DNA of 64,000 nucleotides from contig JAIXQF010000004.1 of assembly GCA_027484085.1 (NCBI GenBank), positions 506,162 to 570,161 of the forward strand, read 5' to 3'. How positions within the stretch are numbered: position 1 is the stretch's first letter; each line of letters opens with the position of its first letter. Position numbers and translations under genes: made by a program. Shown piece after piece: positions 9,959 through 49,327 of this stretch. A model generated the notes under the pieces. The model saw only the letters and a list, made by a program, of their open reading frames with translations, made no database searches and was not told where the DNA came from. Origin of the DNA: Actinomycetales bacterium. GTDB lineage: Bacteria; Actinomycetota; Actinomycetes; S36-B12; UBA5976.

Positions 9959-10142
9959 TGGGGTGAGTGACGGGACTTGAACCCGCGACGTCCTGCCGCT
10001 TTCGCTCAGCAGGCCGTCAGCGGATTTAACCACATATTAGAAACTGGATCTGCGCCTGACGTCCTGCCGCTTTCGCTCAGCAGGCCGTCAGCGGATTTAC
10101 AAACTTGGGGTGAGTGACGGGACTTGAACCCGCGACGTCCTG
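9959..10142. repeat. Direct repeats containing the tRNA-His 3' half and a 42-bp hairpin unit
   Basis: A 37-bp segment, the 3' part of tRNA-His including its CCA, occurs at 9959-9995 and again inside the tRNA at 10106-10142, same orientation. A second 42-bp unit occurs at 9987-10028 and 10058-10099 and overlaps the first by the 9 bases GACGTCCTG. On the minus strand the unit reads CCGCTGACGGCCTGC then TGAGCGAAAGCGG, with pairing CCTGC/GCAGG and CCGCT/AGCGG. The copies of each repeat are identical. This resembles att-site remnants or local template switching. No ORF of value is present. Confidence 0.85.
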
Positions 10143-10182
10143 GACCACAACCAGGTGCTCTACCAGCTGAGCTACACCCACC
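10106..10182 (-). tRNA. tRNA-His (GTG anticodon)
   Basis: A complete cloverleaf on the minus strand: acceptor GTGGGTG pairs with CACTCAC, D arm GCTCAGCTGGTAGAGC, anticodon GTG at 10146-10148, T arm GCGGGTTCAAGTCCCGT. There is an extra G-1 opposite discriminator C73, the histidine identity element. CCA is encoded. It lies downstream of orn, as in many actinobacteria. Confidence 0.95.
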
Positions 10183-28675: not shown

Positions 28676-28897
28676 GGTCGCCCGCGAGTCACATGTTCGT
28701 GCAGAGCGCTTCGCCTGTTATGGAGTGGGTGACCTTGCCAATCGATCTTCGATTGGCCAATGAAAACCGCCGAACCTTCGGTTCGATCCCGGTCGCCCGC
28801 GGGCAAGAGAGCGTGATTCAAATCTATTGATTTGAATTAAATGAGCACTGTCCGGCGGTCGCCCGCGGAATGAGCGGAGCGAATGGAGCGGGTGACC
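28676..28897. repeat. Cluster of direct and inverted copies of the tRNA-Gly 3' end with hairpins
   Basis: The tRNA-Gly end (minus strand) has a 14-bp direct copy at 28721-28734 (one mismatch, ending at CCA). A 22-bp inverted copy of T arm plus acceptor lies at 28779-28800 (one mismatch). The shorter box GGTCGCCCGC recurs at 28676-28685, 28791-28800 and 28857-28866. Boxes plus tRNA end form imperfect hairpins, for example 28857-28866 with 28888-28897. Two perfect 9-bp hairpins lie between the copies: 28737-28757 (GCCAATCGA stem) and 28816-28837 (ATTCAAATC stem). No plausible ORF is present. Confidence 0.85.
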
Positions 28898-28957
28898 GGG
28901 ATCGAACCGGCATGGCCAGCTTGGAAGGCTGGGGCTCTACCATTGAGCTACACCCGC
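28884..28957 (-). tRNA. tRNA-Gly (TCC anticodon)
   Basis: Cloverleaf on the minus strand: acceptor GCGGGTG/CACCCGC, D arm GCTCAATGGTAGAGC, anticodon stem CCAGC/GCTGG with loop CTTCCAA (TCC), T arm CCGGTTCGATCCCGG, discriminator T, CCA encoded. The 3' end borders a repeat cluster derived from the same tRNA end. Confidence 0.94.
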
Positions 28958-29185: not shown

Positions 29186-30520
29186 GTGAAGAGCGCCGTA
29201 GAAAACATTTCCCCATCCCGCATCAAGATCACAATCGAGATGCCGTTTGCTGACTTACAGCCATCCTTGGATTCGGCATACGCGCGCATCAGCTCCCAGG
29301 TAAACATTCCAGGATTCCGAAAAGGAAAAATTCCGAATCGCATTATTGACCAGCGTGTTGGACGAGGCGTCGTGCTTGAAGAAGCGGTCAACGATGCAAT
29401 TCCATCCGGCCTGGCACAAGCGATGATTGAAAACAAAATTGTTCAACTAGGTCGTCCAGAAGTTGATGTAACAACTCTTGATGAAGAAGCTGGATTGATC
29501 TTCACGGCTGAACTAGATATCCGACCTGAGTTCGATCTACCTAAGTTCGATTCACTAAAGGTTGTCGTAGATAACGCTGAAGTAACTGTGGATCAAGTTG
29601 AAGAGCAGCTAACAGCGCTTCGCGGCCGCTTCGGCGCTCTTAAGGAAGTATCACGCGCTGCAAAAGATGGCGACGTACTTCTTGTTGATCTAAGCGGCGA
29701 CCATGAAGGTCAAGTTGTTGAAGAACTAGCGGCAACTGCATTTAGCTACGAACTTGGTTCCGATGACATGGTGCCTGGATTCGACGATGCAGTTCGCGGT
29801 GCTCAGGCTGACGAGGTTCGTCACTTCCTATTCACACCTTCTGCTGGTCAGTGGAGTGGCAAGGGCATCACAGTGAAGGTAGAAGTGAAGGCAGTCCGTG
29901 AGCGCGAATTGCCAGATGCTGACGACCAGTTCGCACAGCTTGCAAGTGAGTTCGACACAATCGGCGAACTACGCGAAGACATTCGCACTCGTCTTGGTCG
30001 CGTTCGCTTGATTGAACAGGCTTACCAAGCTCGCGATCTCACGCATGATGCATTGATGGAAGCCGTAAAGTTTGATATTCCAGAACGCACCATTCAGGAT
30101 GAAATCGACGCTCACTTCGAAGATGGTCACGGTGACGAAGCACATAAAGCTGAATTTGAAACCAACACTCGCAATGGCCTAAAGTCCCGCATCGTTTTAG
30201 ACAAAATTGCTGAAGTCGAAGACTTGCAAGTTAACGATGCAGAACTTTCGCAGTGGTTGATTCAAGAAGCGCAGCGCTACAACATGGCACCAGATCAGTT
30301 TGCGGATCAATTAGTTCAAGCCGGTCAGGTTCAAGGTGCGGTTTCAGAGGTGCGCCGGGCGAAGGCACTGGCACATGTCCTAGAAAACGTCAGCGTTGTA
30401 GACAAATCTGGCAACAAAATTGATCTTGAGTCAGTTCTACGCGGCGATGAATCCGATGCGGACTTCGACGCTGAATTCGATGCCAGCTCAGATGAGGAAA
30501 ACTTCGAGGCTGACGAATAG
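29186..30520 (+). CDS. tig: Trigger factor
   Basis: A 444-residue ribosome-associated chaperone and prolyl isomerase. The ribosome-binding signature is seen near residue 44 (PGFRKGKIPNRI), the PPIase domain at about 155-240 (GDVLLVDLSGDHEG), and the C-terminal helical domain ends in an acidic tail (DESDADFDAEFD...EADE). The GTG start has AGGAG at 29177. The final codons and stop are part of a 41-bp tandem repeat running into the intergenic region. Leads the tig-clpP1-clpP2-clpX block. Confidence 0.96.
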   Translation: MKSAVENISPSRIKITIEMPFADLQPSLDSAYARISSQVNIPGFRKGKIPNRIIDQRVGRGVVLEEAVNDAIPSGLAQAMIENKIVQLGRPEVDVTTLDEEAGLIFTAELDIRPEFDLPKFDSLKVVVDNAEVTVDQVEEQLTALRGRFGALKEVSRAAKDGDVLLVDLSGDHEGQVVEELAATAFSYELGSDDMVPGFDDAVRGAQADEVRHFLFTPSAGQWSGKGITVKVEVKAVRERELPDADDQFAQLASEFDTIGELREDIRTRLGRVRLIEQAYQARDLTHDALMEAVKFDIPERTIQDEIDAHFEDGHGDEAHKAEFETNTRNGLKSRIVLDKIAEVEDLQVNDAELSQWLIQEAQRYNMAPDQFADQLVQAGQVQGAVSEVRRAKALAHVLENVSVVDKSGNKIDLESVLRGDESDADFDAEFDASSDEENFEADE

Positions 30521-30614
30521 TCAGTCTCGAAGCGAGTAAACACCGCGAGGCTGACGAATAGTCAGTCTCGAAGCGAGTAAACACCGCGAGGCTGACGAAT
30601 AGTCAGTCTCGAAG
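30506..30614 (+). repeat. 41-bp tandem repeat (2.7 copies) spanning the tig stop codon
   Basis: Units begin at 30506, 30547 and 30588 with a period of exactly 41 bp and no mismatch in the overlap of copies; the third is truncated after 27 bp. Each unit contains the hairpin GAGGCTGAC-GAATA-GTCAGTCTC, in which TAG is the tig stop in the first copy. The rest of the unit reads GAAGCGAGTAAACACCGC. Three stacked hairpins would follow tig mRNA and could act as terminator-like or RNA-stabilising elements. There is no clear T-run. Confidence 0.95.
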
Positions 30615-30694
30615 TGGTTTAGCCCCTAGGCATCTCCAACGCTAGGAGCGAACATGACCATGTCGCCCCTGCCGATGTCAGGCCTACCCCTTAG

Positions 30695-30714
30695 TGTTTA
30701 GTTGTTACTAAACA
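30695..30714. promoter_or_regulatory. Perfect inverted repeat before clpP1
   Basis: TGTTTAGT-TGTT-ACTAAACA, an 8-bp inverted repeat with 4-base loop, ends 4 bases before the AGGAG ribosome site of clpP1. It could be an operator or an mRNA hairpin that affects ribosome access. It does not look like the GC-rich ClgR box described for clpP in other actinobacteria. Confidence 0.5.
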
Positions 30715-30727
30715 TTTAGGAGTATTT

Positions 30728-31363
30728 GTGAGCGGCATCGAGGTACCGGGATTAACACTTCCGGAAGCACGCACCCCGTCCCCATCAGGTCAGCAATTTG
30801 GCGATTCGGTTTACCAGCGCCTTTTGCAAGATCGCATCATTTTCATGGGAACCCAAGTTGCAGATGAAATGGCAAATGCAATTTGCGCCCAGATTTTGCT
30901 GCTAGCCGCAGATGATCCTGAAAAAGACATTTTCCTTTACATCAACTCTCCAGGTGGATCCATCAGCGCAGGCATGGCTATTTACGACACCATGCAGTTC
31001 GTCAAGAATGACGTCGCAACTGTTGCCATGGGCCTAGCCGCATCGATGGGCCAATTCCTACTTTGCGCCGGTGCTCCGGGTAAGCGCTACTCATTGCCAC
31101 ACGCTCGCATCATGATGCATCAGCCTTCAGGTGGCATTGGCGGAACGGCTGCTGACATCAAGATTCAGGCAGAGCAGATGAAATTTACTAAGGCAAAAAT
31201 GGCTGAGCTAATTGCTGAGCACACTGGCCAAACAGTGGAAACGGTTACTGAAGATTCAGATCGTGATCGTTGGTTCACCGCAGAAGAAGCAAAAGACTAT
31301 GGTTTCGTCGATCATGTTGTGCGCAGCGCGCGCGACGTGGCTGGCGAAGGCGGAACGGCATAA
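30728..31363 (+). CDS. clpP1: ATP-dependent Clp protease proteolytic subunit 1
   Basis: A 211-residue serine protease subunit. Catalytic Ser106 (AASMGQF) and His131 (IMMHQPSGG) are visible, with the aspartate in the DSDRDRW segment. GTG 30728 has AGGAG 5 bases upstream. In actinobacteria ClpP1 and ClpP2 form a mixed two-ring tetradecamer that works with ClpX or ClpC. It is followed after 12 bases by clpP2, with AGGGGAG as ribosome site. Confidence 0.96.
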
Positions 31364-49087: not shown

Positions 49088-49257
<170 letters not shown>

Positions 49258-49258
<1 letters not shown>

Positions 49259-49296
49259 CAAAACATGAGACACCTTCGGGTGTCTTTTGTTTTGTT
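49258..49296 (+). terminator. Second terminator after the tRNA-Ala end copy
   Basis: GACACC-TTCG-GGTGTC with the stable TTCG loop is flanked by outer ACAAAAC/GTTTTGT pairing and T-rich sequence. It follows the copied tRNA end exactly as the first terminator follows the true end, but with a different stem sequence. Confidence 0.85.
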
Positions 49297-49327
49297 AAGT
49301 AAGCCCATTGGATTCGGGAGAAACGCC

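Follow-up and report, generated by a model that had tools for sequence, protein, structure and literature searches.

Stop-centred hairpin arrays with a common 12-mer behind tig and other genes in one genus of actinobacterial genomes

The 3' end of the trigger factor gene tig, together with its stop codon and an inverted arm, is present three times in tandem in the window analysed here, a 64,000-nt stretch belonging to a genome of 1.80 Mb in 12 contigs (hereafter the own genome). A like layout was found at pyk, asd, rplL, groEL, nadE and two more genes: the gene's tail, copied in inverted orientation, forms a stop-centred palindrome, behind which stand the 12-mer CARTAARCACYG and then direct copies of the tail. 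At most sites the inverted copy comprises the last 8–18 bases of the gene and lies directly behind the stop codon, so that the stop lies at or next to the hairpin tip. The arms differ from gene to gene, while the 12-mer is, with exceptions, common to them. The relatives in the genus, given below by G numbers, are actinobacterial metagenome-assembled genomes, one of them titled Nanopelagicales, and are known mainly from metagenomes, probably of freshwater or lake habitats.

The genes at the locus follow the order tRNA-Pro, tig, clpP1, clpP2 and clpX, with clpP2 and clpX named by eye; tig, clpP1, asd, rplL, both groEL genes, pyk and nadE were checked with NCBIfam profiles. All features of the tig locus described in this paragraph lie on the forward strand. 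The tig coding sequence (29186..30520; TIGR00115, 318 bits against a cut-off of 180) ends with the stop codon TAG at 30518-30520, and its last codons, GAG GCT GAC GAA TAG, supply the 5' arm and the loop of hairpin 1 (30502..30532), a palindrome centred near the stop with a 13-pair stem, one G-U pair included, and the loop GAATA. Then come the first copy of the shared 12-mer (GAGTAAACACCG, 30534..30545, matching CARTAARCACYG at 11 of 12 positions), hairpin 2 (30546..30573), which repeats the tig tail in direct orientation, stop codon and inverted arm included, the second copy of the 12-mer (30575..30586), and hairpin 3 (30587..30614), the final direct copy, after which the sequence is unique. 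Between the array and clpP1 (30728..31363, same strand as tig and downstream of it), an inverted repeat, CGCTAGGAGCG, was read by eye at 30640..30650.

An earlier note on this DNA had described a 41-bp unit repeated 2.7 times without mismatch over the tig stop, and Tandem Repeats Finder returned exactly this at 30505-30614 (100% match, score 220, the next best of ten rows for the window scoring 52). The array is thus borne out, with the small correction that hairpin 1 begins at 30502, a few bases ahead of the start given in the note. The three stacked hairpins it proposed were recovered in the predicted fold of the 151-nt RNA 30490-30640, which has a free energy of -69.4 kcal/mol (z = -7.7), with none of 200 shuffled sequences as low. 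A chance repeat as the source of the array is ruled out by the repeat score of 220 and this fold z-score. As the 41-bp period is not divisible by three, successive copies fall in different reading frames, and read-through of the first stop would lead to the next one 19 codons on. A common genome word can likewise be dismissed, the tig linker having two matches in the own genome at up to three mismatches, both within the tig array.

The tig array is not a canonical rho-independent terminator, as it has the G+C-rich hairpins and lacks the T-run in the pattern scan, which returned no terminator-like site in 30400-30800. A classic T-run hairpin was seen by eye further on at tig of G002, G021 and G019 and at rplL of the own genome. 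In Rfam, nothing scored above the gathering threshold for the array, and the three sub-threshold matches were to animal miRNAs, the best at 24 bits against a threshold of 83. Plasmid records gave 173 matches, and among the best 20 the named features were ordinary clp and tig homologues.

Across the genus, tig was found in 20 of 23 genomes, and 20 tig loci from 19 genomes were readable to the stop codon. Half of these loci carry at least two tail copies: three in the own genome, G022 and G020, two in G009, G021 and G019, two at each of the two tig loci of G002, at least four in G010 and at least three in G001, the last two with N gaps inside the array. The other ten, including that of G015, have a single copy. 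In every array the unit measures 40 or 41 bp. Inside the own genome, G022 and G020 the full units show no differences, and inside G001 they differ at two positions; between genomes they diverge into GGCTGAC, GGCCGAC and GGCAGAC types. The last copy is without all or part of its inverted arm in G009, G019 and G020, and in G010 it has no stop, ending in GAATGG. On the tig tree, the presence of the array requires two changes, compared with 8.7 in shuffles, and the arrays fall in a clade of ten rows, nine of which have one (G015 being the tenth), plus G019.

Copy number is therefore far from the invariance that would have told against the earlier note, ranging between species from one to at least four tail copies. 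Between species, the array resembles a minisatellite (VNTR) in having tandem units whose number differs among relatives; minisatellite arrays at different loci would be unrelated, whereas here the 12-mer is common to tig, pyk, asd, rplL, groEL, nadE and two others. When two tig tails 20-45 bp apart were searched for across the order, 8 of 166 genomes were positive, all in this one genus, in a search that sees only arrays with this genus's tig tail; G010 escaped it because of its gap and changed last copy. In other genera of the family, no array was present at the 11 tig loci read, drawn from 16 genomes with a match. A contig of a close relative (L059) is labelled Bifidobacterium breve in the public record; this appears to be a labelling error, its tig being 86% identical to that of the present genus.

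The earlier note had allowed that no other protein gene in related genomes might behave like tig, and nadE, asd, rplL, groEL and pyk all do. The genus-wide survey of loci covered tig, pyk and nadE. Of the 19 pyk loci read, five carry clear arrays (G013, the own genome, with 47 bp repeated 4.4 times at 98% match, G022, G001 and G020, the last with a different linker and no shared 12-mer), in two the second copy is degenerate or incomplete (G002, G014), in another two there is one hairpin or part of one (G010, G015), and nine have no array, one further locus being cut by a contig end. Among the bare loci are those of G003, G005 and G009, close relatives of genomes whose pyk is filled. At nadE, also read at 19 loci, a long palindrome over the stop, a 12-mer and a partial tail copy occur in G002 and G005 (both ATAAACACCG), G009 (ATAAGCACCG) and G013 (TTAAGCACGG), while G019 has the last 19 bases of the gene three times in a row, separated by a 10-bp linker, without the 12-mer.

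At rplL and asd of the own genome, the stop palindrome leads into GAATAAATACTG or CAATAAGCAACG and from there into more hairpin copies, the asd array extending to the contig end. At groEL of G020, a palindrome whose 12-bp stem has TAA for a loop precedes part of the tail in copy, after which come another palindrome, with a stem of 7 bp, and CAGTAAACACCG; groEL of the own genome has a weak 12-mer only (CAGTAGAAACGG), and a second groEL (L087) and an ORF in L132 have a tail copy and no clear 12-mer. Two more genes, both named by eye, complete the set. A small gene like DUF3117 (L282, own genome C11) ends in a stop hairpin with a 15-bp stem followed directly, at about 640-770, by a 12-mer array in which a 15-bp repeat, CATCAATAARCACTG, occurs in 4.7 copies, and a monooxygenase-like gene of G020 (L101) has a stop hairpin, CAATAAGTACTG and a tail copy. 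As a separate observation, a 32-bp imperfect repeat occurs three times between ribF-like and rpsO-like genes of the own genome (L082, 13697-13820), with the stop codon outside it.

Among 1098 ORF ends in 1.21 Mb, nine repeat 12 or more of their final 25 nt without mismatch inside the next 160 nt, where shuffled pairing (20 shuffles) leads one to expect 0.1. These nine are five tig genes, nadE, two groEL and the ORF in L132; as L105, L112, L148, L149, L150 and the window were picked to include tig, the tig counts in these scans are not independent, four of the five lying in stretches chosen for tig and the fifth being the window, and the unbiased part is the other four ORFs. The 12-mer stands behind 6 of 25 stop-centred hairpins and behind 3 of 310 other hairpins, four of the six being tig. 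At 10 or more matches out of 12, it was found behind a strong hairpin at 15 places (698 words), compared with 8, 6 and 4 for control words; the 15 comprise five tig, two rplL, one asd, the L101 gene, three places downstream of tRNA-Gly on the opposite strand and three that are probably chance. Without tig, this unbiased scan is not strong, and the overall excess is modest.

Better evidence comes from the genus-wide search for RTAARCACCGC, where only the place of the word behind stop hairpins is unusual. The word itself, with 93 places by hand sum, is no commoner than its reversed control with 101. It stands right behind a stop hairpin at four non-tig places in three genes (nadE of G002 and G009, pyk of G013, groEL of G020), against about 0.01 predicted when the rates of 6/25 and 3/310 are applied by hand. 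When 70 distinct contexts were read by eye, tig and pyk stood out by a strong hairpin with a direct copy, groEL of G020 was also present with a weaker hairpin, and the rest were judged to be chance; the remainder of the 93 places are mostly tig and nadE. With one chosen representative for each of eight genes, 10 to 12 of the 12 positions match, a figure that shows the consensus and not its significance.

A general habit of placing hairpins over stop codons was considered and rejected: they occur at 3.0-3.2% of ORFs in the -10 to +10 bins and at 4.8-7.9% nearby. Stop hairpins are thus otherwise rarer than their neighbours, and the gene-end arrays form a special class. In 354,146 bases from other genera of the family, none of 137 words matching the 12-mer stood behind a strong hairpin (controls 1/130, 0/130 and 0/137), and a direct tail copy of at least 12 nt was found at 1 of 330 ORF ends. 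The restriction of the whole class to this genus is likely but not proven, since the rate in the genus predicts only about four places in a sample of that size.

The arms follow the coding sequence from which they are copied, most clearly at pyk, where the replacement of GAT by AAT ahead of the stop has its matching change in the downstream arm. With G015, whose arm has a different length, and G014 left out, the pyk covariation score was 0.184 against 0.076 in shuffles (0/500 as high), falling to 0.078 or less when the arms were slid; three pairs change on both sides, which 27 of 500 shuffles reach, as do seven cells, which none does, and further pair types are no more numerous than in shuffles (366/500). 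At tig the covariation is weak (0.095 against 0.061, reached by 53 of 500 shuffles), the third position of the Ala codon pairing in several ways in five of the seven rows, with repeated sequences left out and G001 represented by a later unit, its first being hidden by the N gap. Matched arms in a hairpin usually count as proof that selection has acted on an RNA structure; in these arrays the arms come from the coding tail, copied in inverted orientation. A matched change of both arms is expected from hairpin selection and from template switching alike, the latter being able to create and keep perfect hairpins by writing both arms in one step, according to the part of PMC8794818 consulted. Since pyk arms track codon changes, and bare and filled versions occur in close relatives, these loci allow a test of whether template switching by itself is enough to build and repair terminator-like hairpins.

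The parallel with tRNA genes drawn in the earlier note holds in outline. Taking as a case any copy of at least 12 nt of the 3' end within 700 nt downstream, 4 of 31 distinct tRNA genes scanned in the own genome (His, Ala, Phe and Met) repeat their 3' end, and further cases are tRNA Ser, Gly and Pro and, by eye, ssrA. Behind tRNA-His (window 9959-10181, reverse strand) there are two linker copies with a 71-bp period and a second copy of the last 37 bases; one such copy, close to its own tRNA sequence, is seen at tRNA-His of G015 (L110). Behind tRNA-Ala(GGC), at 49088-49300 of the window, two terminator-like hairpins enclose the linker GGAGCGAAGTGACGG and, after it, a repeat of the final 17 bases of the gene; in G020 a tandem pair with a 94-bp period stands at this place. 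Downstream of tRNA-Gly (window 28700-28957), parts of the tRNA 3' end were seen by eye to recur in both inverted and direct orientation, and on the opposite strand of this region a word resembling the tig 12-mer stands behind each of two hairpins. Also by eye, the tmRNA gene ssrA of G002 (L143, 380-770) shows a tandem pair with a 93-bp period and partial copies of the tmRNA end downstream.

We tentatively favour, with a confidence that stops a little short of even, a reading in which this class of gene-end arrays is made and evened out by template switching together with slippage, and in which the copies probably serve as U-less transcript ends between tig and clpP1. A template switch during replication at the gene end would write the inverted arm and keep it matched to the coding sequence, and slippage or unequal recombination would gain, lose and even out whole units. 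A ribosome on the tig stop would cover hairpin 1 and leave hairpins 2 and 3 clear; these could therefore halt RNA polymerase or block 3' exonucleases, and this offers a possible reason for having copies. As the pattern scan showed no T-run around the array, termination would rest on the U-less model. The array would then separate tig from clpP1P2, which is probably regulated on its own. The inverted repeat at 30640-30650 resembles the operator consensus of ClgR and is a candidate site, with a similar inverted repeat seen by eye at the same place before clpP1 in relatives; lying between the array and clpP1, it suggests that clpP1P2 probably starts its own transcript. Tuning by multiple hairpins of read-through into clpP1, or of mRNA stability, as the earlier note had put it, is plausible, and given the ClgR-like repeat, insulation would explain the layout no less well than a graded read-through. 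Should the units act on RNA, their copy number would be a simple evolutionary dial on transcript ends at tig, pyk, groEL and rplL.

Against this reading count the weak covariation at tig, the pair types that are not raised at pyk, the modest outcome of the unbiased word scan, the general scarcity of hairpins over stops and the missing T-run. Further points are that half of the tig loci are without an array, that the last tail copy in several relatives has no inverted arm, and that the arrays at pyk of G020 and nadE of G019 are without the 12-mer. The 12-mer, whose origin is the newest part of the finding, is not explained by template switching and would be either a selected protein-binding site or the mark of an insertion process.

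Neutral DNA instability is possible and, in our judgement, rather unlikely: gene-end palindromes would be hotspots of slippage and template switching, and the arrays would be tolerated behind the stop without any function. The variation in copy number fits it, as do the tig loci without an array (10/20), pyk being bare in G003, G005 and G009 beside filled close relatives, and the assembly gaps or contig end that fall in arrays (tig of G010 and G001, asd of the own genome). Random instability does not predict that unrelated genes carry one and the same 12-mer behind their stop palindromes, or that several species have arrays at tig and at pyk. The shared word would be accounted for by an undescribed DNA-writing process that places an inverted tail, a fixed 12-mer and a direct tail behind the stops of chosen core genes, and perhaps of tRNA genes, an idea that we consider unlikely. 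Were it true, the fixed part would be the signature of the machinery and the arms a copy of the target, with the cell or a tiny element as the builder.

Improbable, for its part, is the notion that the arrays are scars of a mobile element targeting gene 3' ends, each insertion leaving an inverted arm, the 12-mer and a tail copy. In its favour, eight genes share the 12-mer and have arms of their own, tig and pyk loci occur both filled and bare, and partial copies are seen at tRNA 3' ends, which are classic integrase targets. Against it stand the size of the units, which at about 41-47 bp hold no gene, and the arms, whose sequence comes from the target in each case and does not resemble a fixed attachment site. 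The Y1 transposase (REP/IS200-type, PF01797) was found in none of 23 genomes of the genus and in 5 of 14 control genomes, a search of this one family (other transposase and integrase families lay outside it) in which 13 of the 23 genomes are less than 90% complete and the count among those at least 90% complete is 0/10. Two exact unit patterns gave no match in viral contigs, and the tig region had no blastn match in 50,697 phage records. Nor was there any larger insert of the kind an integrase attachment-site remnant would show, the copies being a linker's distance apart at the 20 tig and 19 pyk loci, two tig N gaps remaining unread. An artefact of assembling a metagenome-type genome is scarcely credible, even if repeats are hard to assemble and two relatives have N gaps in the tig array, as the own tig array of 110 bp lies within ordinary read length and related arrays of differing sequence, each matching its own gene, occur in separately named assemblies.

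Among open-licence papers, we found no description of stop-centred palindromes with a common spacer, and the known systems share parts of the layout. REP palindromes, as presented in the part of PMC3733652 at hand, are alike in being short, often clustered, mostly downstream of genes and possibly RNA elements; they form one-palindrome families of high copy number bearing GTAG or CGTC tags, with RAYT genes often accompanying the GTAG type, whereas the palindrome here differs in each gene and the Y1 transposase is absent from the 23 genomes. A REP with RAYT is accordingly ruled out, there being no dispersed common palindrome and no such transposase in these genomes. The TAACTGA direct repeats of Beggiatoaceae, Cyanobacteria and Bacteroidetes are alike in repeating a short common word in intergenic tandem; in the Maribeggiatoa genome they lie mostly just upstream of start codons, in contrast to the gene-copied hairpin arm of the present arrays (PMC4679880, in the portion consulted). 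Template-switch hairpins, from the same partial view of PMC8794818, are alike in that one event writes the inverted copy and the arms stay matched; the common spacer and the tandem stop-codon copies are features of the arrays described here.

Hairpin clusters near stop codons have been proposed as intrinsic terminators without U tracts (PMC8355165, in the sections available). Such clusters consist of two or more hairpins with gaps of less than 15 bases, close to the stop codon and mostly within 80 nt of it. The tig array is like them in this spacing and in having no U tract: hairpins 1 and 2 span -18 to +53 of the tig stop at 13 bases from each other, and hairpin 3 starts at +67. Unlike the clusters covered in those sections, the hairpins here are stop-centred copies that include coding sequence and are spaced by a 12-mer common to several genes. 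By analogy with what those sections describe, it is these U-less hairpin-cluster terminators that the tig array would most resemble in the way it works.
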